From Euborellia annulipes (Eukaryota; Arthropoda; Insecta; Dermaptera; Anisolabididae), in assembly GCA_023213315.1 (NCBI GenBank), contig JAKCPI010004471.1, positions 62,001 through 126,000 of the forward strand: a stretch of DNA of 64,000 bases, read 5' to 3'. Numbering within the stretch: the first letter of the stretch is position 1; each line of letters begins with the position of its first letter. Position numbers and translations under genes: made by a program. The notes under the pieces are model-generated. The model worked only from the letters and a program-made list of their open reading frames with translations, was not told the DNA's origin and made no database searches. Positions 391-59,740 of the stretch are shown here, piece by piece.

Positions 391-424
391 TGTAGACCTT
401 TCGGACGCCAGTCCTTCCTCAGGA
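391..424 (-). ncRNA. Hammerhead ribozyme core, interrupted by MITE
   Basis: On the minus strand the order is CTGAGGA (417-423), stem II AGGAC/GTCC with a short loop, then GAAAG and GTC (394-396). The core fits CUGANGA...GAAA...UH. The 5' strand of stem I is displaced about 280 bases by the MITE at 425-704, so the copy is probably dead. Confidence 0.5.
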
Positions 425-704
425 CAAGGGCGGATTCAGGGGGGGGTTAAGGGAGGAAGTAAAGGGAATAATTACTCCTCCCCCCCCCCGAGATTTGAGA
501 AAAATATTTTTTTTGGGGAAAAAATTGTATTTTTAATATAAAATTTTAAAAATTAATACTTAAAAATTTGATTTGTATATAAATTCTGGTAAACAACTAC
601 AGAATGCACCTTTAAATTACCGATAATAAGAAAAAAATTGTGTGCTGTGCGACTAGTCACAGCAGATTACCCCCCCCCGAGAAACTCCTCTAGATCCGCC
701 ACTG
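425..704. mobile_element. hAT-type MITE inserted in a hammerhead element
   Basis: The ends are imperfect inverted repeats: CAAGGGCGGATTCAGGGGGG on the left, and on the right CTAGATCCGCCACTG, which reads CAGTGGCGGATCTAG in reverse. Flanks are near-identical 8-bp duplications, CCTCAGGA (417-424) and CTTCAGGA (705-712), the length expected of hAT transposition. It has no coding capacity. It interrupts the minus-strand hammerhead just outside its CTGAGGA box. Confidence 0.75.
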
Positions 705-840
705 CTTCAGGATCTATGATCAATAAATATTTTAATATTTGCAAACAATTGTTATATAACACAGATGAATGTATTTTTGAAAAAATTAATATGATTAAAA
801 TATCTTTTAGAATTGTAATAGATTGTTTTTATTGATGATA

Positions 841-882
841 GGCCCTGAGGAAGGACAAGTCTCGCGTCCGAAATGCCGAAAT
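841..882 (+). ncRNA. Hammerhead-like core, degenerate, partner of the 391 copy
   Basis: CTGAGGA at 845-851, stem II AGGAC/GTCC around a loop, then GAAA at 870-873 followed by TGCC instead of the usual CGTC. It forms an inverted pair with the minus-strand core at 391-424; flanking sequence is also inverted between the two. Loss of the cleavage-site triplet suggests it is inactive. Confidence 0.45.
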
Positions 883-1717
883 TAAATTGATTTAAATTCC
901 TGACTGACATCCTGTTTCCATATTATAATAAAACAGCCATATTCTTCATCATTATTGATTATATATTTTTTAAAACACACATAAAAACAAAAATTCCAAA
1001 TTAGATTACACTTTATTTATAGCATAATCTAGTAAAAACACACATAATCTAAAAATTAATTTTATTCCTACAAAAAGCATTTGTTAACGGGGTCATTAGA
1101 CTGTCCGCAATCCTTATTTGCGAGTTTGGTTGCATAACCCTATAATGCACGGCGTTTTTAGGAACTCACACTTTGTTAGCATCCTTCCTATTAGTTTAAA
1201 TACTTTATACGTATTTCGACACATCATCAGAATACTACAATACTATTCGAGAGTAATACTTTCTAGAAATACAAAAAATTTTACTTAAAAAATAGAAAAT
1301 ATATTTATTGTTGAACGAAACACAAGCCATTCAATTTCTTCTAATCGACCTAGTTCTTTGAAATTTAGCCTAATGATAAAATATTCTGATTTTTTTTTGT
1401 TAATGGAATGTTTCTTCCATAAACTACGTATATATAAAAAAACACGATCAAAAAAACAGCATATTAATGACCCAAATAAATTACCTAAATCACAGTTTCA
1501 TCAAGAAACTTTTAATATAAGCATTAAACCCATTTTTGGTTTAGGAATAAGAATTAATTTGCTTCTTATTATTCGAAAAATTCAAACCATTAGAGCAACA
1601 TAAATAATGTGTTACTTGAACATACTCATTATTGTATTTATTAATAAGGCAAGATGCGGCGGAAAGCAGCCTCTATTGTATGCAGGAGCAGAGACTGGCA
1701 GCCAAATTTTTTTTCCT

Positions 1718-1761
1718 TTAACCGACGTTTCGGTCTCGAAAGAGGCCATCTTCAGGGCTAA
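1718..1761 (-). ncRNA. Hammerhead ribozyme, type I with minimal stem III
   Basis: Minus strand: stem I TTAGCC, CTGAAGA (1749-1755), stem II TGGCCTC-TTTC-GAGACC, GAAAC then GTC, then GGTTAA, which pairs with TTAGCC (one G-U pair). All invariant core bases fit CUGANGA and GAAA, with C as the base at the cleavage site. Stem III is reduced to the AC/GU step, as in hammerheads reported to cleave as dimers. Confidence 0.75.
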
Positions 1762-2045
1762 TATATAATTTGTTCATACAGTCCAATAGGAAAAGTAACA
1801 CACTTTTAACAATAAGATACATTAATACATGCTATGTGCGGGCCAGAGCGTCCCTCATTGAAAGATCTCTCACCTGATGGGCATCAGTACTAGGGTCTGA
1901 CCGAAACAAGATTTTCAACCGAAACCAAATTTCGGCTTCAATTTTAGTTTCGCTCGAAACCGTAACCGAAACTTGTTTTATTACTTTTTCCATTGGTTTG
2001 TGTAAAACTGTAAATGAACAATTTTATATATATATATACATTTTT

Positions 2046-2086
2046 AATCCTGAAGATGGCCTCTATCGAGACGGAAACGTCGGTCC
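2046..2086 (+). ncRNA. Hammerhead-like core, partner of the 1718 copy
   Basis: CTGAAGA at 2050-2056, stem II TGGCCTC-TATC-GAGACG and GAAACGTC at 2074-2081. Stem II has one mismatch next to GAAA and stem I pairing is poor, so activity is doubtful. Confidence 0.5.
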
Positions 2087-2260
2087 AATAAAATATTTAA
2101 CTGCCAGCCTCTGCTCCTGCAATCAATCCTTCCTGATACAACTCAATAGCAGCCACAACTACAATACCAGCTTCTAATGAATAAATTAAACTCCTTCTAA
2201 CAAGATCTTTTGGCCAAATCTATTGAGCCATCTTAAATAAATTTTAAGATAACAAGTTTG

Positions 2261-2482
2261 CTTAAGATTGGGCAAAATTGCACCCCCTGAAGTCGAACCA
2301 GGACCTCCACGCTTTTTAAGATCTTTCTCTAGGCAATTAAATTTTAATTTCATTAGTATAATAGGCGGATGCGAGATGTTGTGCTTATTGGGCCGGCTCC
2401 CTAGGATAAGGGTAGCCCACCCGCCGCGAAAGCGTGGAGGTCCTGGTTCGACTCCAGGGGGTGCAATTTTGCCCAATCTTAA
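2261..2482. repeat. Foldback element with tRNA-like B box
   Basis: Two arms of about 55 bases are nearly perfect complements (2261-2316 and 2429-2482), beginning CTTAAGATTGGGCAAAATTG. The right arm includes GGTTCGACTCC, which matches the RNA polymerase III B box consensus GGTTCRANYCC. The spacer has a GC-rich stretch (GGGCCGGCTCCCTAGG). Possibly a tRNA-derived SINE pair rearranged head to head. Confidence 0.55.
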
Positions 2483-9200: not shown

Positions 9201-12151
9201 TACTCCTTTTTTTATGACCTAGGAATTTGGATTAAAATTCTTAATATTTTGTCTGACCCTCAAAACACTGACCTCTGGAGGAATTCTTGAATCCAAGTTC
9301 GGGGTCAAAGATGTTATTTTTTTAATTGACACCTCGTTTTAAAGACCTTCAAAGGGTATTATACAATATTCTAAGTTTGATTTTAAAACTTAGGTCATCA
9401 CAAGTCAATCATGAACTGTTATCGAGAAAAAATTAATTTGATTAGAAATTTGTTTAGAGGCGTATTGCCTACCTTTCAGGCTAAAACGTGCGAATTAACT
9501 TTTTTTTAATTTAAAATATATATATATATAATAAAAAGTTGACAGCATAATCCCTTATTTTTAATAAATATTATTAATCCTTTTTTTCATTTAAGTCCTT
9601 GAACTTAAAATTTATTTTCAATACTATTATTTGAGTAATTATATAAAAAAACTTTATAAATGAAATCACGGTTTGATTAAGTTTAAAAACTATTTAATTG
9701 AATGAAAACAAAACTTTTCAGCGCCAACTTAGTTTCTTTTTTATATTAAAATATATTTAATGTTGAAAGTTATTACTAAAAAAAAAAAAAAAACGACTTG
9801 CCTTTGATAGAACATTATTTTGAGACAAGGAAGGGAATACCTAATCCATTATAGTTTAATAGGTTTTTTTTTATTTTATTTTTTTTATACAAACTCAGAC
9901 GAATAAGATGGAGGGGAGAGAGGTCGACACCCACCCAGTGGCCTCGTGATTAATTTTATTTTAAGAATTCACAGATTGGAATGTCCTATATTTCTTTAAT
10001 CAAAAATAATTAATTCCAGAAAATAAATTTATTTAAATTCCCACTCTTTTAAAAGGTGTCTCTCCCTGCCTTCTATCTTTCTTATATATTGGTTATTAAC
10101 GTTATAAATAAAAGTTTTTCTTTCATCACACTAATCATACTTAAACTGACTTATACTCCAGGAACAGCCGCAAAAATATTTAGGCTGAACTTGACATCTG
10201 CCCTATGACTCCAAGGAAATTTATCGAGTTTACCACAACCTTGAAAATATTTTCTTTTATTTTTATTTTATTTATTTAAATTAATAGACAACCGAATCTT
10301 ATTTTTATGCGCATCTTTACTATTCTGATTGTATTTACATAGGCTCCCTCGGAGGGGGCTATTTGTATTGCCTACCTATCAGGCAAAAACGAGCGAATCT
10401 ATGATTGGAAAAACTATTTAAAAACTTTTCATTTAAAGTATATATATAATAAGAAAAAAAATTGGCAAATTTAAGTTCAAGGCCTTAAATGAAAAGAAGA
10501 ATTAATTTATTTATTGTTTGCGATCTTAAAAGTGAGGGATTATATTTTGTGCTGCGCTTGCCCCCCACTACTTCAATTTATTTGCAAATATTTCGGCTCC
10601 TATACACTGGCATAGAACGTCCAAGCTCATGGGCTCAATTGTTCTCAAATATATTTTTACAAAATTGACAATCTTTCTCATAAAATTCATATATGCCCCT
10701 GTATAGGAGCCGAAATATTTGCAAATAAATTGAAGTAGTGGTTTTTTTCTCCTTATCGTCCTAGTGAAAAAATATTGTTGTATAAATATTTAATAAAAAT
10801 GTTCTTTCTGGTTGGATTACATTTGACCATTAGGGTGGCCCTTAGCTTTAGGGTATTATGCGAAAGTCAAAATTTTGCTGCCTCCGTCCCGTAATCTTAT
10901 TCCAATAAACAAAAAAACAAACTGTACAAAATTTCACTTAAATCGGACAACTACTCAAACGCCTTGAAGTTGGAACAATCCTTGAAATAACATGAACAAT
11001 GTTCATTGAACATTTTGAAAATATTGATACAGGGCCGGATCTAGGGGGGGGGGCAGTGGGTGCGTGTGCCCCGGGCGGTAGATATCAGGGGGCTGCAGTT
11101 AAAGAAAGATTTACTAAAAAAAAAGGTAAAATGATATGAATTTGGTATAGAAAATTTTAAGGAGTGGGCGGCAAATTAAATTTTGCCCCCCCCTAAAAAA
11201 TCTCCTAGTTCCGGCCCTGTATTGATAAAGCTACAATTTTCTTTAAGGGAAAGACTTTTTTATTTAGAACAATACTTTGGATACAATCAAAACATACATA
11301 TGAGAACGAACGAAAATTGAATATTATTTTTTCCTATTTTAACTAAGAAGATTTATTTAGTAGCAGTTGGGTAATTTATTATAATATAGATAATGTACGG
11401 CCTTCGGCAACGATCTGCAAAACAATTTGTTTTTCATTTTCATCTGTTGTGGGAATGTTATTGTTATCTACCAGAAAATAAAATAACTTAAAAAATCATT
11501 ATCTATATTATAATAAAGCTGCAAAGACGCTTTTTGATTAAGGTACTTCTAGACCACTTAGAAATATGGGGTTTTTTTGCATTCGATTCAGAATTCTCTA
11601 AAACTAACTAGAAAAATCCAAAATCAGAAAAAAACCCTCCTAAGGCCACTTGTTATTAAATAATTAAATATAGAAATTAAAGAGTTAATATTGACTCAGT
11701 AAAAAAATGTATTTTTTTTTAGGTACCTGAAAAGCAAGAGATTTCCACCCCTAGAACAATGGAAAGACGGCGAACTGCTTTGTCAAGGGCCAAATCACGA
11801 GAAGATGTATGTAATTTTTTCTTATTATTTGATAAATATAGTAACTAGATAATTAAAACCCCGCTCTTAAATTTTTTCATTACATTATAAAAATAAAAAA
11901 TAAAAATGAATAATAATGAATAATAATAAAAATTATTAAAAATAGAAATGTATGTTGATTGTTAATGGGCATACATTTCTATTTTTTTTTCCTTTTGTTT
12001 TGTTTTGTTGTATTTGTTATTGTATTTAAATTTGTATTGTGTTAGTTGGACCTAGCCACCGAGGACTGGTGCCTCTAAGCGGGTCGTAATAAATTTATTT
12101 ATTTATTTATTATTTTTTAGCTATTTAAATATTCTTTAATAAATTCTTTTG

Positions 12152-12183
<32 letters not shown>

Positions 12184-15100
12184 CAGAAGGTCTTCGTACA
12201 GTGGCGTAGTGAGCTTAACCGCGCCCGGGGCACAGATCTTTTAGCGCCCCCCCCCCCATTCGAAAATCATATAATATTATATGTAAAATATACAAAATTA
12301 TTATGTTACACTGGCATTAAATTTAAAATATATTTCCCAGAAATCAATTATAATAAAAATAAAAATTATTCAGCAATTTTTTGTTTTGCGGACCATTTGG
12401 CGCCCCTTTGTGAGTAGCGCCCGGGGCATAATGACCCCCCTTGCTCCCCCCTCGCTACGCCACTGTCTTGGTATTGATATGCCATAATAAAGAAAAATTC
12501 TTTCTTTTTTCAGGCTAGGATAGATCCTCTTGGCAAAGGTTCATTACTTTACGGATCATCAACGACATCAGATGATCCCGATGTTCTTTTTAAGCAAAAT
12601 CAAGATCTACGACGACGTTTGGAAGATGAAACCCTTAATTATAAAAGACGATTAGAAACTTATAGACAAGCACAACAACATCAGGCCGCTCTTGTTAGCC
12701 GACTACAAGCAAAGGTGATTATTAAATTCAATTAAAAAACAAAATGTAGAGTTGGCAGATTATTGTGTATTTAATTTTAAAAAGTGCCAATAAATGCTAA
12801 TCTGCGTATACCAGGTCATTTGGAAAGTTCCTCGCCTGACACATAGATGGCAATACCTGGTCCTTGTTGGAAACATCCATCTTAGATAAATTGATCTGTC
12901 AAATAACAAATCAAAGATTTCTTACTATTTTTACCCTTTTTCTGGCCTCGAACATTCTGGATGAGCTGGTATACTGCGACTATTTTTTAAGTAACAAAAT
13001 TGTTCTAATTAATTGAGCTCCAAATCGTGATTTTATTAAAATAGAAAATTTCTCAGTTACATTTACCCAGAGACTTCTCTCCCTGTGCCTGTCCTTTTTT
13101 CATTGTTTTCTTAAATATTTTATTAATTATAATCAGGAGAGAAGTCGCTGTTGATGTTACAAAGTACAAGAGCAGCAAAGAAAAGAAAGCCTTTGTATGC
13201 CAAATGCCGAAGGAGAGGTTTCGGACAAAATTTATTCGTCCATTCTCAGTCCTTATAGGCTTATATTTATTTTAGGCCCAAAGTTGTAATTATTCTTGAT
13301 GCACACAAGTCCTTGTATATTTTATTAAGTGTTTAAACCGACATGAGAGTCTTTTAAAGACTAATAGACTTTTAAAGACTCTAAAAGATTCTCACGTCGG
13401 TTTAAACACTCGCAACAATTACAACTTTGTGCCTAAAATAAATATAAGACTAAGGACTGAGGATGGACAAATAAATTTTGTCCGAAACATCTCCTTAGTC
13501 ATTTGGCATACAAAGACTTTCTTTTCTTTGCTGCTCCTGTACTTGCTCTTTCCCAACTTATTTGATTAATTATTAAAGAGAACTACTTTAGAGAAAACCG
13601 CATGAAGAAAAACTTTGTATTGATTGCTGTACTCTTTACTTATATAAAACTTTTTCGATTCATTGTTCTGGAACAAAACGCACACACGTGGCCCCTTTTG
13701 GAGCATTGAATTGAAATGATCATTACTTAAAATTATATAATTTCTGTTGATATCTATGTAATATTAAGTGGTATTTATTATGCTGAACATTATTAATTGG
13801 GACAGCATGATCGTTTTGGATTAATATTACAAAATAAAATTGCAATTTATCAAATTTTTATAAGCATTACATTTATAAAAAATTATAATTATCTCGGTTT
13901 AATATTTATTGCTTCTATCACTTATTTTAAAAGAAAATGCACTACATTTATTGTTCAGCATAATATATTATTATTTATATTACCATAATGAAAGAAAAAA
14001 ATCAGACTGGCATATTATCAAAATACATAACATTTGAAAATATTTTTCTATTTATTGCCCCTCTTCCTATGAGCAGAGAATCATGCTTCCTGATCTAAGA
14101 GTAGAGCGGCAATAAACTTTATTTAAATTATACTAACTTCCAATTAAATGAATTATTAAAAATTATAAATATTATTCTATTGTCTGTAGGTGTTACAGTA
14201 TAAGCAGAGGTGCAGTGATCTTGAAAACCAAATGCTAGACACGCCCACTGACTCGGGACCTAGATCTTTGGGGACCTCATCAGCGCATCATCGGGATTTT
14301 AGGGATGACAAAATCAACGATCTCGAAACCGCATTGAGGAAACTCGCCGATGAAAAACGAAGGTGATCTAAGTAATATTTCATAAGACTAAACTTTTATC
14401 TTAATAATAAAATTAAATAATAAATATTAATAATAATATATTATCAACTACTACTTAGCAACAAAGGCCAAAGGTGAAATAAATTCTTGTTTAAATTTCA
14501 TAGAAAAATATCGTGGCTAATCGGTTAAGCTGCGGATTACGAATCTAGAGTTGCTACCCAACTCGGGTTCAAATCCCACTTGCCATGAAAATTTTCAAAC
14601 ATTGCCAATGTCTCCTCCTTCTCTCTGTAATTGGAGTTAATCTCTGTTGAATGAATGAATGAATTAATTATATATTGAATCTCTGTTGAGAGATAGTATT
14701 TAAAATATAAATATAAAATATAATACCTTTCTTAATAACTAAACCTTTTATTAACACATTTAGGCTTTAAGTGAAAAATAAAAAGAGCTTTTCACTTTGC
14801 GTATATCTGTCTGTTTGTCATAATGAAGAATTAGACTCCCACCTCATTTTTTGCCTCATTAGAAAATTTATTTCTATTTTTCGAGATATTTATTTTTGAA
14901 CAACCTTTCTCTTTATTTTGAAATATATATATATATATATATATATATTAAATTTAGTTTTAATTTATAAAACTTATTCAAAGTCACTGATTTATCTCGA
15001 TTCCGACACTTTGGTACAGCTTGAGTTACATGAAAAAAGATGGAAAAGGTTTCTAAGTATATAAATATAAATTTAAATAAATAATGAATTTTTTTCAGAT

Positions 15101-19675: not shown

Positions 19676-19713
<38 letters not shown>

Positions 19714-22700: not shown

Positions 22701-25700
22701 AATTTAATTTAAAAAATTAGTCATTTTTGATACCTATTTCATCTAATTTAATTATTTTTTTTTTAATTTTCAAATTTTATTTCTTCTTTTTAATATTTTT
22801 TTCTAAAGATTCAATTATTTTAATCATTGATACATTTATAAAGCTCACCACGATCAACAAGCCATACAAGAGAAACTGGACTCAGTCACAAGAAAATTAG
22901 AAAACGAACGGAACGTTTTGGAACGAGTTCGACGTGAAGCCAATGTACGAAGTGAGCAAGATCGAGGAAATCTAAATCAATTACGTGATGAATTAAATAG
23001 AATTAAGACTAAACTTGAAGAAACGAGGTAGGTTTTAAAAATTGATTACTATTTAATGAGTATAGTTGTAAATTTCATAATTATTTTAGATTTAAAGCCG
23101 ATGAAGAACAAGCTAAATTAGGGAATAAAATTGAAGAAGTCCGAAAAGAACGCGATTTAGTTCAACAAGAGTATAGTGAACTCAAAGTTCAATTGCATTT
23201 AGCTGAAGATCGCAATGATAGTTTACAAAATCTACATCAAGAATCAACAAGAAAACTCAAAGAATGTAAGTTTCAAATATTAAAATAATAATTTTGTTAA
23301 AAAAAAAACTTTTCTCTTTTAACCGTAATTCAAGGAGTTTTTTTTTTTTGTTCTCAGGCAAACAGGTAATAAAGAAGACTTTATTACCTGTTTGCCTGAG
23401 AACCTGCAAAAGAAAAAACTTTCTGAATTACGGTTGATACTGTTTCTTTCATCTCCTGAATTCATCATATTCACTTTTAGTTGAAACTAATGGGGAAAAT
23501 TTAAGAAAAGAATTGACTGATGTCCGAAGACAACTTGCTGATAGTAATTTTGAAAAGGAAAAATATAACGGTACAAATAAAGAACTCCGAGAACATATTA
23601 AAAGAATTGAAAGTGAAAAACGTGAACATCTGCGATCCCTTGAAGAAGCCTTACAAAAAATTTCCAGTAAGTCTTATATTCAGATTTTGTATATAATGCA
23701 TATTTTTAGGTTTATATAGCTGACTATTTCTATTAAGTGTGTTTAAAGTTATTTAGCATTAGAAGTTATATGATTTTAAATGCATAAGTCTTGAAAACCG
23801 AAACATTAACTTAAAAAAAATCTTTCCTAATTAAAATTTTAGCTCTGGAAGATACGAGAGCAGCTCTTGAATCCGAACGAAATAAACTTCAATTAATATT
23901 GAGAGAAAGTGATAATAAACAAAATTCTTCTAACCAACAAATTCAGGAATTAAAAGAAGATCTTCAAAAATTTCAAATGTCCAATTTGCAATTGCAAAAT
24001 GAAGAAAAGGAACTTCAAGTTCGATTATCAACATGTAATGAAGAATGTGAAAGAAGCCAACAAGAACTACTTCAACTTAAAAAACAAGTATGTGCAACCT
24101 TAAAAGTTATATATAATACAATGATGGATTCTAAAACTTTCCAACTGATTTTCAAAGCGTTTTTTTTTTTAATTTGTTGAGAACAAGAAAATTTATTATG
24201 GGAGTTTTTAATTATAGAACACATTTTGTTATTAATTATTTATTAAAAATATAAATACTGTACAATGTTTCGACTTCTTATTTAAGTATTGTACGCTTGC
24301 TTTCTCAAGTGAACTAACCTCTAAGAGATATGTGCATTTTATATACAACGACGTCAGCGCCATCTTCAGTCATTTCTATGAAGCTAGACATAAAATTTCC
24401 AGCCATTCCCATGTAGTTACCCTAGACACAAAACAAGAAAATTAATAAAATTTTTTTATTTCAGATTATGGATCTTGATGGCAGCCTTGACCAAGCTCGT
24501 CAAGAGATTGCCAGATTACGAATGCGAAGTGAAGAAGATGAAGAACGATGTCGAACTAGAGAGCAAGAATTAATTATGCGTATTGAAGATAGCCGTCTTC
24601 GAGAACGAAAACTCGAAGATCAAAAGCATAATCTTGAAGTGTGCCTTGCGGATACCACTCAACAAATCCAAGATCTTAAAGTAATTAAATAAATTGTTAA
24701 TTAGTGAAAGAAGATATTTTAATAAAGTTTATATAATTTTTTTTAAAGGCTAAACTCGGTGGATCTGAAGGTCGAGTGAAAGCATTAGACCAACAATTAA
24801 TTCACTTAGAGAATGCGAAAAAAGAAGTTGAACAAAAGCTTTCTAGTGTTGGATCTACTTTAAGACGAATTGCAGGAATTCAAATGGATGGAACGGTGAA
24901 TTTCTCATTTAAACTTATGAGTCCTTCAAGAAGATGGAGTCCTGCTAGAGGTAATTTTAATATTATCGCAATTGGAACAATTTTCTCAAATCCTTTACCT
25001 GTAGTATATAAGCCGAGGTTTGATACAATATTGTTTAGTTTCAAATTTCACTTCTGAAGATGATACTAGAGGGTTGAAGTGTTAGAAATTTTAATTTTTT
25101 AAATAATTAAAACCTTGCTCTGTTTTTAATTTTACAAATTTTTTATTATTTTTCAAAATCTGTTTATTAAAGCTTTAGTGATTGAGCCGTTAAAGCACAA
25201 GTGGGTACCCTTTTTTATATTTTTGAGTTAGGCATGATACCGTGTAGAGAAAAATGTGTTCTGTTTAATTCCTAATTGTTGAGAAGGGTGAATAAATAAA
25301 TCCAGAGCTGATATTCAGGCAATTTATTCGGATTAAATAAAATAATAAATTGCCTGAAGCTCTGGATTTATTTATTCACCCTCCTCAATAATATCCACCA
25401 GGCTGCCCAATTGTGTATATCCTAGTCCTGTTACTGGAGTTTTAATAAATAGAGTAGTGAGGATATCCAGGCAGCCAAAAAACAATAAAGAAAATTATAT
25501 TTGTCTTTATTTCATGTCTTTGTCGACGTTTCGGCCATATTCCGGCCTTCATCAGGACAAATGCTGTTTGCCTCGAGCTCATAGAACCAGAAGTCATGAC
25601 ATCGACGAATGTTCGCTCAAACACATTGGTTGAAGGCCTCTATGAGCTCGAGGCAAACAGCATTGTCCTGATGAAGGTCGGAATATCGGCCGAAACGTCG

Positions 25701-28700
25701 ACAAAGCTTGAAATAAAGATAAATATAATTTTTTTATTGTTTTTGGTGCTGATATCCTCACTACAATATATATTCAGCCACTTCTCCTGAAATTAAATTT
25801 TAATAAATAAAATATTAAAAAGTACCCTTCTATGATCTCAAAACAAGGGAAACTGGACTTACACCACTTGTGCTTTAAGGGCTCAATTATTATTATGTGA
25901 GTTTTTAATTATATACCACATTTTGTTATTAATTATTTATTAAAAATATAAATACTGTACACCGTTTAGACTGCTTATTCAGCAGTCGTTTTCAAGTACT
26001 GTACACTTGCTCCTACTCAAATGAACTAATCTCTAAAGACCTTACGTGCATTTTTTGACTTTACTAAATTTTCACTGAAATATCAATAATATAAATCCAA
26101 ATGATTATTATTTTCTTTGTTTCAGTTCAAGATAGTCATGATCGAACAGACAATGTCATTGATGTAGATCCAGAAATTGTTAGAAAAGGAGTGCGTAATT
26201 TAATGATGCAAGTTGCACAAATTGAAAGAGAAAGGGTAGGAAAGAATTTTATAAATCCTATAAATATTAATATATATATATATATATATATTATAAACAT
26301 AATATTTTGCAGGATGATTTAAAAACACAAGTAACAAGCCTTAAGAAACAGTTAAATGAAGCACAAGATGTACAAAATAGAGTTGATGATAAACTTAGTA
26401 CCGCTTTAAATAATCTTAGAGCTATTCAAGAAGAAAAAGGTAGCATCGAAGCGAAACTTAGTCAAAAACAGGCCGCTCTTAATGCTCAGGTAAGTTATTT
26501 CGACATTTGGAAATAACTTTTAATTTTTTTCATAATATTTATCAAATATATTTAAAATATTTCTATTTTATTTTATTTTTTAGTCTGAAGCTTTGCAACA
26601 AAAGTCGAATGAAGCAAAACAACTTAGAGAAAAATTAACCGCTGTTGAACTCTCTTTCCAAAATAGTACTGAAGAAAAAATTCAATATGAGGTAAATATC
26701 ATTTCAAACAAATTGGAACTATTAGCTGTTTATTTTAATTATGAAATAGATGACTGTCCTTTCCTTATGGTAGAGGAGGTGAGGGAATTTAAAATATGTC
26801 TCAAGAGATTTTATATAATCAGAAGAGACCCTATAAACGACCAAGGTGCACTCAAAATATTCTACTCTATATTAATACATCTTAGCCGTGGAGGGTCATA
26901 GAGTTTGGTTCTCTTATTTGGATAATAGTCAGTTAAAGGAATTTAACGATTCAATTGAATTACCAGCTTGAGTCACTCGAGAAGAGAAGAAAGTGAACTT
27001 CCCTCCTCTATCATCCCTGGATGTAATATTAAATGGTCATATTGATGACACTAATATTTTGAGAGAGAATTGTCGCCTACGTATTCGTACTCGTTTTGCA
27101 AGAGCAAACTTGGGAGTTCGTTGGTCGATCTCAACAATAAATTGAGACTCAACAACTATGTTGTCAATGAAGCTAATGACTTTTTTTTTGGAAAAAAAAC
27201 AGAAATGTATTTGCCAGCGATTGTTCAAAATTGGGGTCTTCCATTTATTTCGTTCTCTTTTTATATAATTGGATAAATTTGTACTTACAGTCAGATTCAC
27301 AAGTGCCTGATGAGCTCGAGAGTGGAGTCTTGAGCTTAGTCAACCAAACCAATATTTTTAAAATAAATAAATTATCTTTTTTTTTTAATACAACTGAAGG
27401 GAAAAACTACTTTTAAGAAAGCATTTTGATTGCCTAAGCTCAAGGCTCTACTCTCGAGCACGTCAAACACTTGTGGCTCCGACTGTACATTCATAAATAA
27501 ATAAATAAATATTTTAAATTAAAATATTTAGTTAGATTAATATAAAGAATAGGCTATATAAAAAAATGTAAAATTCTATTTTCTTCATTTAGGATAAACT
27601 TGAAAAATCTCGCCAGATCAATATGAAACTAGAGAATGAAAAACGTTCGCTCCAAGAGGAATTAACTCGCACAGAGTCGAGAGCAACTAAACTAGAATTA
27701 CAGCGCTTGTCTTTAGAGGGTGATTTACAACGTCTTCAAATGGTTTTGACAGAAAGAGACATGCACTTCCAGGTAAGATAACGAAATCTAAGCTTTATTT
27801 CTCTTTAAATTTCTTAAATAATTATTTTAGAAACTTCAAGAAAAATATGATACCCAATCACGAAATATGACAAGTTTAGAAGAACGATGCTCATCCTTAA
27901 AATCGACTATCGATCAATTAAATATTGCTTTGGAAAGAGCTTCTTCCGGAGAAGCAGAAATGCGCAATGAAATTCAAAGTTTACAACGAACTTTGCTTGA
28001 CACAACTTCGGTATCTCAATCGAGTAACGAAAAGCTTAAACAGGTTTCTCTTTTCTTATTAATATATTCAAAAATATTTAAACTTCATAAATGATAAATA
28101 AAAAACTTTTCTTTTTTTTTAGGTGCAAAAATCATTAAGTAACAGCGAGAATGAACGTCGAATATTAAGTGAACGTCTTGAATCTACTCATCTAACAATT
28201 CAAGAGTTACGAAATGCCAACCATGAGCTAACCGAACAAGCAGCTCGTTTACAAAATGAGTTAGCAAATAATGATGTACAGAGATCAGGGTTAGAAGCTC
28301 AGCTTCGACTTAGCAATTGGACTGGAGATTCGCCCACTGGAGCTGGAACTAATGTGTTGGATGAGGAAATTCATAGACAATTGCAATCATCTCAAAGAGA
28401 ACGAATTGAACTTCGAACCAAAGTCGAGAATTTAACTGAAAAGGTATTAATATACCGGTATTAGAAATAGTTTGTTTATTATTAATAAATTAAAAATTAA
28501 TCCATTAATTGAATTCTCAGGAAATTATCAAAAAAGTGGAATCCGTAAATTGGTCTGTGTGTGTGTCTGTCTTATGGGTGTGTACCGATTTTAAGCTTGA
28601 AGGAAATGAGCTACGTGGTTGAAATTTTATATTTAAGTTAGGTACCCACCCGGACAGTTAAAATAAGGTTTTGAACAAAATCAGCCAGAAAGTACTAATA

Positions 28701-33200: not shown

Positions 33201-33309
33201 TTTCGTAAAAGTCAAAAAATAATTTAACTAGTTCTTATATATTTCTATCTAAGTATATATGAATTTTAGTAAAAGAATTTGATTATTGGTTTAACTATGG
33301 TTTATTTGT

Positions 33310-33360
33310 AAAAATTACAAAGTTTCGGCCACTCATTCTGTGGCCTTCTTCAGGTACAAT
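33310..33360 (-). ncRNA. Hammerhead ribozyme, long stem II
   Basis: Minus strand: CTGAAGA (33347-33353), stem II GGCCAC-AGAATGA-GTGGCC fully paired, GAAAC at 33322-33326, then TTT. The GUC triplet is replaced by TTT, losing the C-G step next to the cleavage site. Stem I has only three base pairs before a mismatch. Confidence 0.6.
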
Positions 33361-33474
33361 TCAGATTAAGATTATAAAGATTGTTACATCTCTGATAATC
33401 CCAATTGAATTAGTTGAGAAACAACATTCAATTGAGATTGTCACTGATTTAACAATCTTTATAATCTTAGCTGA

Positions 33475-33522
33475 ATTTTATCTGAAGACGGCCGAATCTG
33501 AGTGGCCGAAACGTTGTAATTT
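33475..33522 (+). ncRNA. Hammerhead ribozyme, partner copy
   Basis: CTGAAGA at 33482-33488, stem II GGCC...GGCC with a longer loop, GAAAC at 33508-33512, then GTT and GTAATT, which pairs in part with TTTTAT upstream. GUU is a permitted cleavage triplet. Confidence 0.65.
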
Positions 33523-33761
33523 TTACAAATAAACCAAAAATCAAATTCTTTTACTAATGATAACAACTATAAAAGCCTAAACTCCAAAATATATGGGAGT
33601 TTTTCTTGTTTGAATTTACAGAGAGTATCAAAAATTTTGTCCTCTCCTAATAATTCCACTGTGCCTCTCCGTAAACATAAGTTACCCTGCCAGGCCTCGA
33701 ATGAGGGGTTGTTGTGTTTCAGGGGTTTTTGTTGGGGTTTTAAAAAAGTGTATTTTATTTG

Positions 33762-40866: not shown

Positions 40867-41197
40867 TTATTCATTCTGTGAATTTTAGTGAATGTTTTGT
40901 CCTATTTTCAGTCTCTAATTTGACATTAAAATTCGAATAAAAATATGTAAACAAAACAGTAATTTTGTCTCTTGATTACTCGTGTCTTCAAATAATCAAA
41001 AAATCATTGATTTATTATTTTTATTATAACTTTTTAGAGGGTTAAAAACTACTAACCTTATTTTTAAATTAAAAAAAAAATTATCAAAATATCATATTGA
41101 AAAGAAGAAAAATGTGAGTGATAATTAACAGGAAAGGTAATGTAGGAGAGAAAAATAATTTTGTATGACCTACATGTATCTAAATCTAAACAACATT

Positions 41198-41305
41198 AAC
41201 AATCTTGAAGATGGGAGCGATGCGTTCCCGAAACCTCGACGATATTTAAATAAAGTTTTTATTCTTTGCTGTGGCTGCATCTACCTGTTCCTGTTAAAAT
41301 ATTAT
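41198..41305 (+). ncRNA. Hammerhead-like motif with C-to-T change
   Basis: TTGAAGA (41205-41211) in place of CTGAAGA, stem II TGGGAGCGATGCGTTCCC well paired, GAAAC (41230-41234), CTC, GACGAT. The downstream AATAAAGTTTTTATTC and GCTGTGGCTGCATCTACC resemble the right ends of other hammerhead elements. Loss of the invariant first C predicts inactivity. Confidence 0.5.
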
Positions 41306-43320: not shown

Positions 43321-45331
43321 ATTCAATCGTATTGGATACAAATCAATTGAAATAAATAGAGACGAGGTCTAAATGGCCTCAGATGTCCAAAAGACCATAA
43401 ACAAATTTAAAAAAAATAAATTTTTTTCATAGCATATTTTTATAAATTTTTTAATGAAATGACTTACTACTACCCGCCCTCTGCTTTCAAAAATTTTCAA
43501 AAAACCTCTAGGTTATATAAATTTCATGGTTTGCAAAACTAAGTTCGTTCTGTTTTCTGTTAGATTTTTTAATCACTTGAGAAAAAGTTGAAGGAAGGAA
43601 AATAAGGGTGGAAGTTATTTGTTTGCATTCTTTTTAGAGCAATTGACTAAGGTGTAAAATAAAACAAATTTTGTTTTGGTGGAATTTATTTTATTTGCAA
43701 TAAATTACACCAAAACAAAATTTGTTTTAATTTATACAACGAAAGGTACTTCTAGTAAACTTCCTATTTAAATTATAATTAATCAAACTTGAACAATCCA
43801 GTTTGAAAAATGTATTTTATAAAGTATAAAATAAGGTTTTTTATTCATTCAATCCGGAACAAAATACCGAATGAGGGAAGTGAAGAAGGGAGGTGGGAGA
43901 GGGGAAATTTAATTTTCTTTTTTAAATTTGAAATAGATTTTGCAATAAAAAACAATTTTTATTAATTTAAACTAATAATATTTTATTAAAATTATCAAAA
44001 AAAAAAAAAAAAAAATTTAATACAAATATTACTAATTTTTAAATTTCTAAAAAGTTTACTAGATATAATTTTGATTCATAAATACAAATTTTCCGTCATC
44101 AGATATTTTTATCCATTTACTTATCACAGCTCTTTAATTCTTTTTATTTTTTTTACTGTATCCAATTTTGCTTTTAATATTTTATTCGTCATAATTACTG
44201 ATATTTACTATTTTTTATGCTTTATTTTTCTTTAAATTGCATATCAACTAAAAAAAAAGCATTACTGAAAGATTAAATTCATTATCACACTCATAAAATA
44301 GAGATTTATTATAAATCAACATATGCAAGACATCTTGAAGATATATTAATAACTTCTTTGAGGGCGTCTTCAATAAATTTGAGGTCATTCTCGGTAGTTA
44401 AGCGATTATTTCCTACTCTTATCTATCCTATCCCTTCTACACTTGTTTTAAATTTTTGTATTTAAAAAATTTGTATGAATTACTTTGGTGAACTCATATA
44501 GAAAATTTTGAAAAAAACTTTTTTACACATATGTTGATAAATTTTATAATTCGACTTTGCATAGGAATATTTCCAAGTCAAATACAACAATTTTGAATAA
44601 CATTCTCTTTTTTGAATAATTTGGCCCCCACTAATTCATATATGATAAAATTTAAGTGGTATAGAAAAGACTGTGTTGGATTAAAAATGATCCCGCCCCC
44701 CCCCCCATTTGGGGATTTTTAATAACTTAGTCTATTGTAGTCAAATACAACAATTTTGAATAAAATTCTCTTTTTTGAATAAAAATTGATCTCCACTAGT
44801 CCAATTGGAATTTGAGTTATTATTCCGGATCCGCTCATTTTTAGGATTTTATTAACTTAGCCCTCCACTAGTATTAATACAATTATGATGAAATTTAAAA
44901 TTAAAGTTTTTAACATCTCATACTACATTATTTCTTGTTTCACAATTTAATAATAATTTAATCAAATTATATTACATTTATTTTTATTATATAAAATTAT
45001 GATTCTTTTTCTAAGACCTTAAAATTCTAATTCCTTCATAATTGGACTAGTGAAAGACAAATTATTAAAATTTCCAAAATGGGTGGGCCCGATCCCGGGG
45101 CTTAAATTTCAAATTTTATCATAATTGAATTACTAGGAGTCACATTATTAATTCTAAGTCAACTAATTACTAATTAATTTAAGGAAATTCCAAATTTTAT
45201 CATATTTATACTAATGTGGACCAAATTATTCAAAAGAAGTAGTTTTATTTCAAAATGGTTGTATTTGACTTGGAAAATGTTTAATTTGCTTAGGAAAAGT
45301 TTCTATTTGACTTTATAATGCTATATATATC

Positions 45332-45372
45332 TTAGGACTGATGAAGGATCAGGCCAACCGAAATATTTGCAA
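45332..45372 (+). ncRNA. Hammerhead-like motif
   Basis: CTGATGA (45338-45344), weak stem II, GAAAT ATT, then TGCAAATTAATT. Same downstream string as the 10564-10742 arms. GAAA is present but pairing is poor; downgraded accordingly. Confidence 0.35.
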
Positions 45373-45497
45373 ATTAATTAGGCCTATATAAAGTAGTTTT
45401 GGTTTATATTTCTCTCATCATTTTAACACGTAAATAATAAAATTTTAATATTACAAGATGTCTACTATTTTGAGAAATTGTCTCATAGAAAAAAAAT

Positions 45498-48959: not shown

Positions 48960-50730
48960 GAGCTAAAATTATTAATAATATTTCTTATTAAATTTTTTAA
49001 TTTCCATTACTTGGTTACATGTAGACGTGGACCTTCTTCCCCTCTCAAGTCAATCATTTTGTGAAAAATTTCTTTAAGAACTTTCATATTTTTTATTTTC
49101 CAAAAAATAACCAGAATTAGTTTGAATTTTTATGAATTCAAATCAGACAGATGGTATATAAATAATTAAAAGAATCGAAATGATTTAAACTTACCTAAGC
49201 CAAATGATGAATAAAGAAGATGGCACAAATTCAATTTATAGACGAAACATTACAATTGATTTCCTATACTCTGTGATTAATATTCCAAAGGCTGATGTCG
49301 ATGTCGTCATGTCACGTAGACAGGATTTCCCCCACTTTTAGTCAGGCCACCCTTAGGTAGATAGCCATTGGTGCTGTGGTGATGCGGACGCGGGTGCTGG
49401 GCGACTCACAAATTTTCTTTTTATAATACCTTCTACCGGACAATTTTTTTTTTTATAACTACTCTTCAAATGATGATAATATATTATAATTAAATTGTTT
49501 ATTTCCTTTCACCTTTCGGTTTACAACTGGTGTATTGTTACTAACACAAAATTTGAGAAATTTTTTTAATTTTTATTCAATATTGTGTTGTTGTAAATAT
49601 AATTTTTCATTTCTTATTTTTAATTAAATTTGTGAAGGGACTTCAATTGAGGGGGGAGGGGAGAGCGGAGTAATGAGCAATCATTTGCCCACCCAACCCA
49701 AATTTTGAAATAAATATTTATATACAATATATTTTAAAAAATTTAAATTTAATTATTATTCTAAAATATAATTTTATTCTATTCGACATAATGTTTGTTT
49801 GATTCAATGAATATTTACCACATACTGTATTTGTAAAATTTATTCAAATTTGTTATTATTATTATTATTTTTTAAAATAATTTTCATTAAAAGCAACTTT
49901 GTTAGAAATATTTTGATTAAAATTTGCTATAATAAATATATACAGTAATTTCTTAATCAACAATTTAACTTATTCAAAAATTAAAATGACGTTCGTGGAT
50001 ATTTTTCTTAAAGGAAAGAGGAATAGAAATTTTTTTTTTTCATATCGGTGTCAGCAGATCTAGAACAGATCCTTTGTTACAATTATTACATAAAATGATT
50101 AGTTAAAACCAAGGTTACCGCTATCTGCTTTTAAAAAATTAAAAAAAAAAAATTACTAGAAATACAAAGAGTTAATGTATTGGTGAAAAATACTTTTGTT
50201 TAAATTAAAACTAATATAGTATCTCTTCAAAAAGGATTCGGAGGTGCAGCCTTAGAATTCTATTTATGGACTTAGAATATTAGAAAAATGGCTCGGGTAT
50301 TGATGACTCGGAGAAATTTCAAATTAAGTGCAAATAATTTTCACTGCACATTCATATATCAGATTTTCCTGCATATTTAGGCTATACTATATTTTATATA
50401 CTAATAATTTCATCGTTTAGTGAGTAAATACCTCGATATCTTTCGTCCGCCTTCATTAAATTGATTTTATGAACTGCTATGAATTATTTATTGAATTAGA
50501 TAGTTATCGGTTTTGGAGATAATATCATTTATTCACGATCTTTATTAGTGATTACTTACAAGCTATGAATCATAATTTTGACAAATATTAATATACGATC
50601 AGCGCCACCCGTCTTCGGGGGACATCAAGTTTATCCAGGGGAAGAGGAATATATACTAAATATATATTTTTTATATTATATTTTATTTTCATCACCTGAA
50701 GCCCATTCCTTTTCAAATAATTTTGTACAT
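48960..50730. other. Gene-free AT-rich stretch
   Basis: No coding signal. A slightly GC-richer part at 49285-49410 (GATGTCGATGTCGTCATGTC, GATGCGGACGCGGGTGCTGG) is not repetitive in this window and has no clear splice sites. The remainder is AT-rich with homopolymers. Confidence 0.4.
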
Positions 50731-50734
50731 AGAG

Positions 50735-52035
50735 ATGGATAATTGTGGGATGGAGAAGCCAATAAATAGACTCTGTATGCAGATTCTAATCACCGGGGAC
50801 GTTTCAGTTTTAATTTAAAAGTCATCTTCAGTTCTTATTAAAAACATACATATAATATTTATATTGTAATTGTATATATAACAAAAAATTAAAGCAAAAG
50901 ATTTCTGGTCTTACGATTAGATAAATATTAATAAAGTGTGAATATCTGGCATATACATTGTTCCTTCATAATAAAATATACCGGTATATGTATATTGTTA
51001 GGTCTTAAAATTCAATGATGGTTACAAGAGTGAGTTTGATATATCAATAAAGACTCACATTTTTTTTTAGACATATGAAATGAGAACCAATCGAAATATT
51101 TATGCAGTATATTGATGAATTCCGAAATGTTATTCCATATATCTTATTTAAAATTTGTTTTAATATTTTAATATAAATAAGACGAATGTTCTTTTGTTTA
51201 ATTTTATTAAGAGAATTAATATTTTATTTATATGCTTATTAATAAATACAATTCCGCATTACTCACGGTTAGTAACAGGGCCGAATTTAAGAGTGTGCTC
51301 CCCTAAAGTCCATTCCCCCTCTATAGTTCATATTTGTTTAATACATTTGTTTTATACTACAAAAGGATAATAGAGTTAATTGGTGAAAAATATTAATAAC
51401 GTCTCAAATACTTCATTTAACAAACTGCCGCCCCAGAAAATTTGTTGCCTTTCTAAGCTACAACCGTACTTAGCCAATTAGTGCTGGTCAGAAAAGAAAT
51501 CTATTTAAATAAGCTGTATGAATTAAATAAATAAAGAAAAAAATCTTAGCTGCATTTCTCATTTCTACTCTCTTATTAATATTTAAATAAAATTAACCTG
51601 AGAACATTTATTGATATATCATACTAGTGTAACCATCATTGTGTTTTAAGAATTAACAATCATCATACTTATAATATAAAGCGCTAGCGGTTGACTTCCT
51701 GTCCCTGTGTGTATGTGGCTATCAGGGCTCTGATTGGCTAGAATTACAGGAAGTGGAGCGGGAGAGGGAAATTTAAAATTTAAGCCGAAGGCGAGTCAAA
51801 GGTAGTCCAGGGCGGGCTTTACCACTTGTTTATTAATATTTACCTAATCATAAGACCAAAAATTTTTTTGCTTTATTTTTATAATTTTTTTTATTATATA
51901 CAATGTAATTATATGTATGTTTTTAGTAACGACTGAAGATGGCTAAAAGAAAGGTCTCCGGTGTTTAGATCATGCACACAGAGTCTATTTATTGGCTGCT
52001 ACTGCCCACAATTATCCATCTGTATATATACATCA
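50735..52035. mobile_element. 1.3-kb element with inverted arms and hammerhead-like cores
   Basis: Left arm GATGGATAATTGTGGGATGG and right arm CCCACAATTATCCATCTGTA are complements; arms continue inward for about 200 bases (for example ATATTTATCTAATC/GATTAGATAAATAT-like and GGTCTTACGATTAG facing CTAATCATAAGACC). It is the largest hammerhead-associated element here. The interior has no open frame; a GC-richer piece at 51680-51830 is unique. Right flank is ACGGCCACTACTTTAG. Confidence 0.65.
50795..50836 (-). ncRNA. Hammerhead-like core in the left arm of the 1.3-kb element
   Basis: Minus strand: CTGAAGA (50825-50831), stem II TGACTTTTAAATTAAAACT (weak), GAAAC, GTC. The catalytic boxes are intact but stem I strands AAGAA and CCCGG do not pair. 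The opposite arm keeps CTGAAGATGG (51935) but has lost GAAAC. Confidence 0.45.

Positions 52036-54793: not shown

Positions 54794-54825
<32 letters not shown>
54720..54825. repeat. GA-microsatellite and long poly-T
   Basis: (GA)n at 54721-54734 and an uninterrupted T run of about 27 bases at 54797-54823. Confidence 0.85.
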
Positions 54826-54828
<3 letters not shown>

Positions 54829-54979
54829 AATTATCATTCAAGATAAAAAAAAAAACTAGAACAACTATAAATATAAATGAATGTTTTCTTAATTGGACGA
54901 CAACCTATTTCATGTTAATTATTTATTATTTGGTTAAATAACTAATATAAGCAATCTTTTTTAAAGATCACAATAAAAA

Positions 54980-57520: not shown

Positions 57521-58626
57521 ATACTGTTATATATATTTTAAATAAATTTTCTTCTTCTAAAAATAAATTCCTCTACTATTTATCTTATTTTATAAATATT
57601 TGAATATTTTATTCTATATTATTCCCATAGGGAATCACAATATGACAGAGAGAAATGACTGGAGAGAAAAATATTTTATTTACTTTTTTTTTTTACATAA
57701 AAACTTTTTGAAATGAAAACTTCTCAAGGCGCTCCATGTAGTGAATTTTTGTAAGAGTGTGATTGAGTCTACCAAACGAGCGAGAAATTCTATTTATTAA
57801 TTAATTCTTTAATTTATTTATTTATTTGAAAAACAAGCAATCAGCAATTAGAATAACACAGTGAACAAGATTACGAAAATATTATTGGGTAAATTTAGAC
57901 ATTTAATTCGGAATTTTCGCGATCAATTTACTATTAAATGTTTCCAATTTTGAAATAAAAAAGAAAAATTCGACTAACAACGGATGCATTCGTTTCTAAC
58001 TAAAAATAAAAAGAGTCTGGAGAAATCTAAAATACCAAACGACCACCCTCCTTTTCCCATCTATATATCTATCAATCTACACATACCAATATATTATTGT
58101 CTCTCATTTTATTTATTCCTATTCTTTCTAAATGAATGATTAATGGAAAGACATTAAACAAACATTAAATCTAAGCTCAGAATACCACTCAAGTTAAACA
58201 ACTTTATAGATTTTCATCTTGAATTACAACTTATTGTTTAGTCTTGAAATTCAAGACATAGATATTATATTTCATTTTATTTTCCCAGAATATTTATTAA
58301 CAAAACTAAATTTAATTTGATTAATGAGCAATTAAGGGGTTTTCATCTGTATATTTAATTTATTCTATGACTCAGGCTCCTATTTAATTCTATTTTTTGT
58401 ATTTAATAATTAAAGAAATAAAATCATTATTATCAATTCAAATTTTGTTTGCTTTAGATACATTTGGGATTATCGATTTTTAAATCCTTATCTATAAATA
58501 GCTTATTTATCAAATTTAAATTTTAATAATATATTAGGGATGACTAACTGTCATATCACCTTTAATTTTCTTTAACAAAACTCCTCTTACTAAATATACA
58601 ATAAATGGGACATGTAACTGACAACT

Positions 58627-58676
58627 CCTCTTCCTGATGAAGAGCACTAAAAGCACTTAAAACGTTGACAGGAAAT
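58627..58676 (+). ncRNA. Hammerhead-like motif, degenerate
   Basis: CTGATGA (58634-58640), AGAGCACTAAAAGCACTT, then AAAACGTTGACAGG. The GAAA box reads TAAAA, so probably inactive. Confidence 0.35.
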
Positions 58677-58904
58677 TATAATTGCATTTTTATTTTGTTG
58701 ATTGCTTTCACCACTTCTAACATAATAATAATTATAAAATTTAAGTTTATCAAAAAATCTCTTAATATAAAATTAAATTAGTAGATTTGACTTGAAAAAT
58801 TTATTTCATTTAAATTGGCTACCTATAAATTCTAAATGGCCTCATATGTCAAAATAATAATTATTCCTCGTCGACATCGGGATATCAGGACTTGAGTATT
58901 TTTT

Positions 58905-58990
58905 CCAGACTACCCAAAACGTCTTCTAAGAGGGTACAAAATTCCTAGAGGAAGTTGGTCAAACAGAGCGTGACAGACAGACGGACACAT
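58905..58990 (-). repeat. Helitron-like family fragment
   Basis: CAGAGCGTGACAGACAGACG and the preceding GTCTTCTAAGAGGG echo the 5' end of the 38948 element in reverse. Confidence 0.4.
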
Positions 58991-59194
58991 TTTGATTAAA
59001 AAATTATATCATATATATACTAGTAAAATTTTTTGAATTTATAAATAGTAAAAACAAATTTGTTTTATATTTTTTTGTAGATTGATACTAAATTTATCAA
59101 TTGATTTCCTGCTGAGAAAGTTTGTCATGCGAACTCTGGACCAGAATATAAGAAATTTCTATTGCATTATACTACAGAAAACGGAGCAGGAGAA

Positions 59195-59740
59195 AATATC
59201 AAGCCTCCAATTTTCACAAATTAATGAGACATTTCGGGAAAATTTTATTATATATTCATCAGTAGGCTACTTCATTGCTCAGGGGCCCACATCTTGTGGG
59301 TACGTGGATGGCGACCACGAGCTGCCCGAGCTGGGACAGGCAGTCCTTCAGTTTTTTAAATGTCTGTTCCTCTTTTCAACGGCCTGTCCTATTTCTTCCG
59401 GTCGTAAAAACGTATGATAGGGTTAGAGGGAAACAGTGAAGTCCGCCGACCCCGCATCGCGGGCCAAGGCGAGGAGAGAAGAAGAAGAAGAAGAAGATTA
59501 GGTTACTTCAAAATTGTTTATGTCCCAAAGTTGGTCATATGGATACACAATATAAAATTATGTATCCTATGTACGGGCGAGTTGTTTTATCTTACTTATT
59601 CAGTAAGAGTATATAATTATGAATATATTGTGCCCAATTGACCAACTCCGGGACTTAAACAATTTTGTTGGGATAATAAAATTTTTCCGAAACGTCTCGT
59701 TAAGTTGTGAAAATCGGAGACTTTATATTTTTTGACTATT
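59195..59740. mobile_element. Inverted-repeat element with hammerhead-like cores and internal LINE-like fragment
   Basis: AATTTTCACAAATTAATGAG (59211) faces CTCGTTAAGTTGTGAAAAT (59697). The minus strand has CTGATGA (59256-59262), then CCCGAAATGTC; the plus side keeps CCGAAACGTCTC (59687-59698) without CTGATGA. Between them, 59280-59500 is GC-rich and ends in (GAA)n after CCCCGCATCGCGGGCCAAGG, with a related minus fragment at 41960-42050. This looks like the 3' tail of a non-LTR retrotransposon. Confidence 0.5.

Follow-up and report, generated by a model that had tools for sequence, protein, structure and literature searches.

Hammerhead units in the window

A 64-kb stretch of the Euborellia annulipes genome (contig JAKCPI010004471.1, positions 62,001 to 126,000; hereafter the window), lying within a 484-kb contig of a 903-Mb genome and with a GC content of ~30%, contains small hammerhead-like motifs, several of which stand in divergent inverted pairs lacking an open reading frame (ORF). 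A preliminary description had listed 15 such sites and taken them for a dispersed family. Our analysis suggests that the pairs are non-autonomous insertions of the kind made by Penelope-like elements (PLEs). Positions below refer to the window, and E values are from a covariance model (R1) trained on the 15 window sites.

Seven divergent pairs were counted in the window (422−/845+, 1755−/2050+, 13242−/13457+, 25555−/25668+, 33353−/33482+, 50831−/51933+ and 59262−/59690+); the five inverted-pair loci announced earlier are thus real as pairs and too low as a number. Unit A has a left minimal hammerhead at 387..433 (−; R1 E 6.1e-7), whose arm groups with 834+ and with the L012 unit, and a right one at 834..885 (+; R1 E 1.2e-5) with the CAGCCA tail strand downstream. 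This pair (422−/845+) was missed by the inverted-partner search described below, and was paired since both arms belong to one family. Unit B (1675..2127) consists of arms at 1675-1756 and 2049-2127 that are 83% identical in inverted orientation, with R1 hammerheads at 1716-1766 (−) and 2039-2089 (+). Unit C (13131..13564, ends by eye) carries R1 hammerheads at 13207-13258 (−) and 13446-13499 (+) and the 3′ stem-loop motif TTGCTG...CAGCGA, and is flanked by a possible 9-bp target-site duplication (TSD), ATTAATTAT, at ~13122-13130 and 13565-13573 (by eye). Unit D (25452..25797), the reference for much of what follows, has an untailed left end and a tailed right end, minimal hammerheads at 25517..25566 (left arm, −; R1 E 2.9e-10) and 25657..25706 (right arm, +; R1 E 5.5e-9), and a 12-bp TSD, TTTTAATAAATA, at ~25440-25451 and 25798-25809 (coordinates by eye). 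The arms of unit E (33266..33557; right end tailed; hammerheads at 33311-33364 (−) and 33471-33523 (+)) group with arms of L003 and L011 and show the stem-loop motif ATAGTT...AACTAT (by eye). Two further pairs have degenerate right members: unit H (50726..52028), whose long arms are 78% identical in inverted orientation over 213 nt, with hammerheads at 50790-50842 (−; E 4.2e-5) and 51917-51964 (+; R1 E 3.3), and unit J (59193..59731; arms 88% inverted), with hammerheads at 59220-59275 (−; E 3.1e-4) and 59660-59704 (+; R1 E 0.21). A 64-nt stretch at 42752-42814 matches the unit J right arm at 77% identity and is perhaps a decayed copy.

No inverted partner was found within 1.7 kb of the sites at 41198, 45332 and 58627. 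The first is a solo minimal hammerhead (41194..41245, +; R1 E 8.2e-8) followed downstream by a TTTTTATT..GGCTGC..CCTG module, and the last (58623..58674, +; R1 E 5.9e-6) reads AAAA in place of GAAA. The hammerhead at 45327..45375 (+; E 1.4e-5) has a 3′ half, GAAATATTTGCAAAT, like that of the terminal repeat of the PLE L051 described below (21 nt at 95%). Palindrome K (10565..10741) holds at each end the 3′ half of this same L051-type hammerhead, with a decayed core and with 21 nt identical to the L051 repeat. No stop-to-stop frame in the window exceeds 142 aa, and the L051 protein has no match at E ≤ 1e-4 in the window, in keeping with the earlier statement that the units carry no reverse transcriptase (RT). 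Single-linkage clustering sorted 51 arms into 21 groups, of which 12 had one member only.

A minimal type I hammerhead with covarying stems

All 15 noted sites have a recognizable core of CUGANGA, stem, GAAA and UH, with one core change each at 13206 and 41198 besides the AAAA of 58627. A strict descriptor (CTGANGA, stem II of at least 4 bp, GAAA, NNUH and stem I of at least 3 bp) matched five sites in the window (13457+, 25555−, 25668+, 33353− and 33482+) vs none in 100 first-order Markov simulations, and a chance origin of the motif was rejected. In the alignment of the 15 sites, 76.0% of the stem cells were paired vs 56.4% after shuffling, and two-sided changes occurred in 25 cells vs 9.8, values that were each reached by 0 of 500 shuffles; with the partner columns slid by 1-3 positions, at most 45.0% were paired and at most 11 double changes remained. 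R1 recovered 15 of 15 sites at E ≤ 3.1e-4, a circular result on its own training set, with the weakest at 59222 (E 3.1e-4), 50795 (4.2e-5) and 45332 (1.4e-5). On 197,923 untrained bases of the same genome (the 198-kb sample), it gave 33 matches at E ≤ 0.01, of which 82.4% of the cells were paired vs 58.3% shuffled, with 64 double changes vs 20.8, in an alignment fitted to the R1 structure and thus biased towards pairing. Stems I and II and the core are therefore present with covariation both inside and outside the window, and the family is dispersed as first described. The match density of ~1 per 6 kb would, if typical, amount to the order of 10^5 copies per genome, a rough figure because the contig of the window supplied half of the sample and one locus entered it twice, as the mirror copies L018 and L020.

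In all 15 aligned sites, one nucleotide separates CUGANGA from stem II; the canonical hammerhead core is not known to have one there. Stem III is absent, as the step from GAAA to UH takes at most 2 nt and has no loop, being mostly C-G and in a few sites U-A; with this two-nucleotide step, stem III is therefore unable to close within one molecule. The ACGU left at the missing stem III is self-complementary, as dimeric cleavage would require. The minimal PLE hammerheads of Cervera and de la Pena 2014 and Lunse 2017 reportedly have the same GAAAC-GUH arrangement, with self-complementary ACGU and dimeric cleavage, and are alike in the absence of stem III. PMC7761336 also describes dimeric cleavage of PLE hammerheads and states that minimal type I hammerheads are scattered by the thousands through the non-coding DNA of animals. 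An Rfam scan of the window returned no site at the gathering threshold, and a lax scan of the 25-34 kb region returned 35 weak matches, most of them to microRNA models at palindromes and none to a hammerhead. A genome search with RF00163 gave 0 matches and was uninformative, with 0 also in 14 control genomes. On sequence grounds, the motifs are minimal type I hammerhead-like, predicted ribozymes, and because covariation is kept across families (21 groups), the hammerhead seems to be under selection.

Two other places in the window resemble the motif in part. At 1200-1240 (−), CTGATGATGTGTCGAAATACG is a hammerhead-like string without stem II, and at 36,573-37,510 nested inverted repeats (50-156 nt, 89-98% complementary) hold a CTGAAGAAGTGAA...GGAAACTGCTTC motif that is hammerhead-like and fails to fit.

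Pairs are divergent

The best inverted partner of each of 48 hammerheads (15 in the window and 33 sampled, within the 262 kb of the window plus L001-L020) was searched by BLAST within 1.7 kb, and a pair was called divergent when the partner lay on the 5′ side. Partners were divergent for 36, convergent for 2, self-palindromic for 3 and lacking for 7; two of the 36 measured just 32-34 nt, and one of the two convergent matches adjoins the hammerhead and is not the hammerhead itself. Hammerhead neighbors within 1.5 kb in the 198-kb sample comprised 9 divergent, 2 convergent and 6 tandem cases (strand permutation p 0.0035), and those within 300 bp 9, 1 and 1.

The same orientation was found across the genome, where close neighbors were taken within 600 bp (2 kb for PLE terminal repeats) and the best 40 of 1490 (D arm), 2296 (C arm) and 631 (L051 terminal repeat) candidate places were scored. 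Divergent, convergent and tandem close neighbors numbered 30, 1 and 1 for the D arm (70 matches listed), 13, 1 and 0 for the C arm (51 listed), 17, 0 and 0 for the L051 repeat (51 listed), and 10, 0 and 0 for the exact hammerhead pattern (100 listed of 575 matches), making 70 divergent, 2 convergent and 1 tandem among the matches listed; the D and exact-pattern sets overlap, and some loci are present twice. Hammerhead spacing in the 10 exact-pattern pairs varied from about 106 to 390. Inverted pairs are thus far above chance and divergent; the check proposed earlier, whether such pairs exceed chance, came out in favor of the first description.

Several loci in L021-L050, like L018/L020, recur in mirror orientation on a second contig (by eye), which suggests an assembly that contains both haplotypes.

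Ends, junctions and target-site duplications in family D

Copies of the 25.45-25.80 kb unit have sharp ends and allowed the pair to be dissected. From 30 loci including the window, six mirror or allelic repeats (by eye) were removed and L023, L024, L033 and L036 were left out for want of a clean pair, leaving 20 units, whose ends were mapped on a 242-nt sense monomer (BLAST ends, accurate to a few nt). The outer ends form two classes, at 205-216 (untailed) and 222-242 (tailed), and 18 of the 20 units have one end of each class, the closest case being L022 (214 and 222); the exceptions are L031, a compound locus with two tails, and L032, one arm of which is cut. One arm begins within 6 nt of a common 5′ end in 14 of 20 units, and the other arm is usually shorter; nothing homologous lies 5′ of this common start, as judged by eye since the query begins there.

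The inner junction, that is, the pair of inner end points, differs in 20 of 20 units. Since every unit has its own centre, the pair in family D appears to be made anew at each insertion and not copied as a ready-made unit, and what replicates seems to be a ~205-nt monomer with a single hammerhead, so that the pair is not the moving module that it had first been taken for.

An identical word of at least 7 nt within 7 nt of both ends was found in 16 of 18 D units vs 13.1% of 306 mismatched pairings, and one of at least 10 (10-16 bp) in 11 of 18 vs 1.6%. These TSD-like duplications are AT-rich and variable in length (7-16 bp in the 16). Among 22 units of several families (two being the same locus), eight share a flank word of at least 10, vs 1.9% of 462 mismatched pairings. 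Three solo D copies checked for a TSD showed nothing over 4 nt, and solo copies are therefore putative insertions.

A probable 3′ stem-loop motif shared by many families

In many families, a TTTTTATT-like run, GGCTGC, a CCTG or ATCC loop, and CAGCCA in the tail follow 3′ of the hammerhead (by eye). Untailed arms stop near the CCTG or ATCC loop (by eye), and the full motif is visible in tailed arms only; many families have two alternative 3′ ends, with and without tail, at the stem-loop motif. Of 51 downstream stretches, 13 contain GCTG...CAGC, vs 64 of 3487 random stretches, and the family stems vary by compensating changes (by eye): TGGCTG/CAGCCA, TAGCTG/CAGCTA, TTGCTG/CAGCAA, ACAGTT/AACTGT and ATAGTT/AACTAT. 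The element bodies, once described as otherwise unrelated, thus share this motif in many cases, and the conserved module seems to be the hammerhead together with the 3′ stem-loop and its two ends, probably not the ribozyme pair alone. The stem-loop may serve as the RT start signal.

A Penelope-like element with the same layout

The locus L051 encodes an 852-aa ORF with RVT_1 and GIY-YIG domains, flanked by direct pseudo-long terminal repeats (pLTRs). Its hammerheads, at 1212-1265 and 4144-4197, each stand just before an ORF start; the repeated stretch covers the first 28 codons, a GCTGG...CCAGC lies in the ORF start at the place corresponding to the stem-loop, and a head-to-head inverted part is present. 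This inverted 5′ part (L051 1-1133) has arms of 451-681 nt at 100% identity, a sign either that the insertion is very recent or that the assembly is folded here. An ORF-less hammerhead pair lies directly beside the PLE at L051:4294-4553. A protein-database search gave 10 relatives of the L051 protein, including an 860-aa RT-domain protein of Euphydryas editha (28%); a PDB search with the ORF gave no match at E ≤ 1.

Thirty-four of the 51 L051-pLTR matches listed form 17 divergent pairs, with C14496 and C2454 seemingly one locus. In 16 of the 17, one arm is tailed (3′ end 287-301) and one untailed (260-267), and the remaining pair is tail-less; 14 have a gap below 400 bp, too short for an ORF. 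The earlier assignment of the units to non-autonomous relatives of PLEs is in agreement with the hammerhead, inverted arms, tail and TSDs that they share with L051. Kinship to a full-length PLE at the level of the arms was seen for the L051 type only, in its pLTR pairs, the 45327 site and the 10565-10741 palindrome (21 nt).

A genome search for GIY-YIG frames gave 118 matches (best 150 of 710 candidates scored), with frames up to 852 aa; among the matches listed, neighbors within 6 kb were divergent in nine cases, tandem in two and convergent in none, and one convergent pair stood 9 kb apart. The L051 protein as a single query, which distant PLEs could escape, found nothing at E ≤ 1e-4 in the window and L001-L050, and the 262 kb with 48 hammerheads had zero matches to it. 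Because GIY-YIG frames are many and the layout of L051 is the same as that of the units, the enzyme would be supplied by autonomous PLEs of this genome.

A model of two-ended priming

We consider it probable that the units are ORF-less insertions made by PLE machinery, through two-ended priming at the 3′ stem-loop and head-to-head joining. The replicating D entity would be an RNA of ~205 nt that starts at the common 5′ end and carries one hammerhead ~100 nt downstream and a 3′ stem-loop, past which an optional ~30-nt tail extends; its ends, hammerhead, tail and TSDs are directly observed in the DNA, while the stem-loop enters as a predicted motif only. A staggered cut would leave two target ends, each of which would prime reverse transcription at the RNA 3′ stem-loop, one cDNA starting at the tail site and the other at the loop site. 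The two cDNAs, either possibly stopped early, would then be joined head to head, and the outcome would be a divergent pair with 3′ ends outward, one tail, a target duplication and a copy-specific junction. The last five features describe the insertion geometry as read from the aligned copies, and two-ended priming is the step that we infer. Biochemical data are compatible with such a route: the two target strands are both cut and extended by a PLE protein, RT starts in the stem-loop, and the tail is the sequence that separates its two start sites (PMC11167929).

Several observations weigh against this model. In vitro, the two strands were not seen to differ in PLE start site (PMC11167929), whereas genomic copies are nearly always one-tailed. 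No autonomous PLE was found for families C, D and E, L051 being the one full-length PLE compared. A generic hairpin score of at least 14 downstream of the hammerhead occurs in 33 of 51 stretches vs 66% of random genomic DNA, without excess, and the stem-loop claim therefore rests on the GCTG..CAGC motif and the compensating stems. The units L026 and L045 (2 of 18 D units) have no end repeat over 5 bp, and units B, E and J have no TSD beyond 7 nt. The tandem neighbors within 1.5 kb in the 198-kb sample are not rare (6 vs 9 divergent). Finally, the arms within a D unit differ by 3.2% vs 4.3% in random pairing (p 0.0002, 18 units), and common variants are discordant within a unit in 4 of 50 cases vs 26% (three columns). 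The two arms therefore share one source, which excludes independent RNAs taken from the whole pool; the D arms would derive either from two transcripts of one locus or from one RNA used twice.

A common source of the arms also speaks for self-priming, in which the 3′ end of one cDNA or antisense RNA snaps back and primes a copy of the same molecule, a mechanism hypothesized for rotifer Penelope elements (PMC3846280). It would account for the head-to-head layout and for the palindrome-junction-like overlap of the arms at the centre (3 to 27 nt) in 8 of 20 D units. An arm copied in this way, however, should extend 5′ at most as far as its template, and the outer ends of the two should coincide. 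If the tailed arm is made first, 5 of 18 one-tail D units (L030, L034, L044, L045 and L049) violate the former expectation; if the untailed arm is, 11 of 18 do, with 2 equal. Nesting is wanted in one order, yet the arm longer at 5′ is tailed in 11 units and untailed in 5, and the outer ends are unequal in 18 of 20. Simple self-priming thus fails in at least 5 of 18 D units, and we regard it as unlikely, though the strongest of the alternatives. Two-ended priming fits better because it requires no nesting order, the 3′ ends face outward and the TSD surrounds the pair.

As for the hammerhead, it cannot set the insertion ends as judged from the copies, because both arms keep it whole; with the hammerhead uncut in both arms, the template was therefore not cleaved there. 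In agreement with these uncut arms, hammerhead mutants leave PLE insertion in vitro unaffected (PMC11167929). It is conceivable, if rather improbable, that the stem-III-less hammerhead is an RNA dimerization device acting through the self-complementary ACGU (or AUAU). If so, a PLE protein dimer would load one RNA per target end, and a single two-template insertion machine would show itself both in the divergent pair and in the dimeric ribozyme, with cleavage occurring later or never.

Origin as animal retrozymes, that is, circular RNAs out of tandem hammerhead repeats, is very unlikely. They have the same ribozyme class and are likewise short, ORF-less and of many copies, some neighbors here are tandem, and PLEs have been proposed as their helper (PMC7761336); nevertheless, direct repeats would be expected, vs the 70 divergent and 1 tandem close neighbors among the matches listed, the unit ends do not coincide with the cleavage site, and there is no stem III. 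Less credible still is a master palindrome, a ready-made inverted pair transcribed and inserted whole: the copies do resemble separate palindromic elements, much alike in size, but the unique junctions of 20 of 20 units refute it for family D, and the hammerhead spacing given above varies widely. A miniature inverted-repeat transposable element or foldback DNA transposon carrying the hammerhead by chance would have inverted arms, TSDs and no ORF, but is scarcely tenable with termini that are not fixed, a ~30-nt tail at one end only, variable TSD lengths and inner ends, and the same layout in L051 with its RT and GIY-YIG.

Relation to known elements

The element class as judged from these features is non-autonomous, hammerhead-bearing and PLE-type, and not categorically new; the PLE-type features found in the units are the arm hammerhead, head-to-head arms, one ~30-nt tail and a variable, AT-rich TSD. 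In L1 twin priming, two cDNAs are likewise primed from two target ends and joined in inverted orientation, with the second primer inside the RNA, whereas the units here start both arms at the 3′ stem-loop. Endonuclease-containing PLEs of the Penelope/Poseidon type are alike in their head-to-head inverted pLTRs, AT-rich targets, optional 31-bp tail at one pLTR and TSDs of 8-10 bp (PMC3846280), and PLEs carry a hammerhead within the element (PMC11167929), as does L051 here. The present units differ from them in being ORF-less and, for D, in a common 5′ end ~100 nt before the hammerhead. Short, non-autonomous, high-copy elements assigned to Penelope are known in heliconiine butterflies (PMC6685494), a likeness in these traits, described in passages that mention no hammerhead, pair geometry or junction data. 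Animal retrozymes are also short and ORF-less, with a type I hammerhead and a suggested PLE helper (PMC7229834, PMC7761336), but consist of direct tandem repeats with circular RNA, in contrast to the divergent units here with ends off the cleavage site. The suggestion of an undescribed derivative therefore stands in part: the layout of inverted pLTRs, tail and TSD is known (PMC3846280), and ORF-less divergent hammerhead pairs were not found described in a literature search that did not cover Cervera 2014, Lunse 2017 and Craig 2021.

The units offer many small natural insertion products (575 pattern matches, and 1490 (D) and 2296 (C) first-look candidates), and their junctions, copy-specific wherever they were examined, separate mechanisms by counting, with regard to pairing at the time of insertion and one end per start site. 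If the model is true, a ribozyme and a 3′ stem-loop without an ORF would be enough to reach very high copy numbers, and such units would be the PLE equivalent of short interspersed nuclear elements.

Other features of the window

On the + strand at 12,000-31,000, a row of short coiled-coil frames reads like rootletin exons (translations by eye), and several hammerhead units would fall in introns of this rootletin-like gene. A tRNA-Ser (CGA) gene lies at 2395-2466, and its 3′ part and flank have an inverted 57-nt copy (98%) at 2259-2315, the whole feature spanning 2259-2485.

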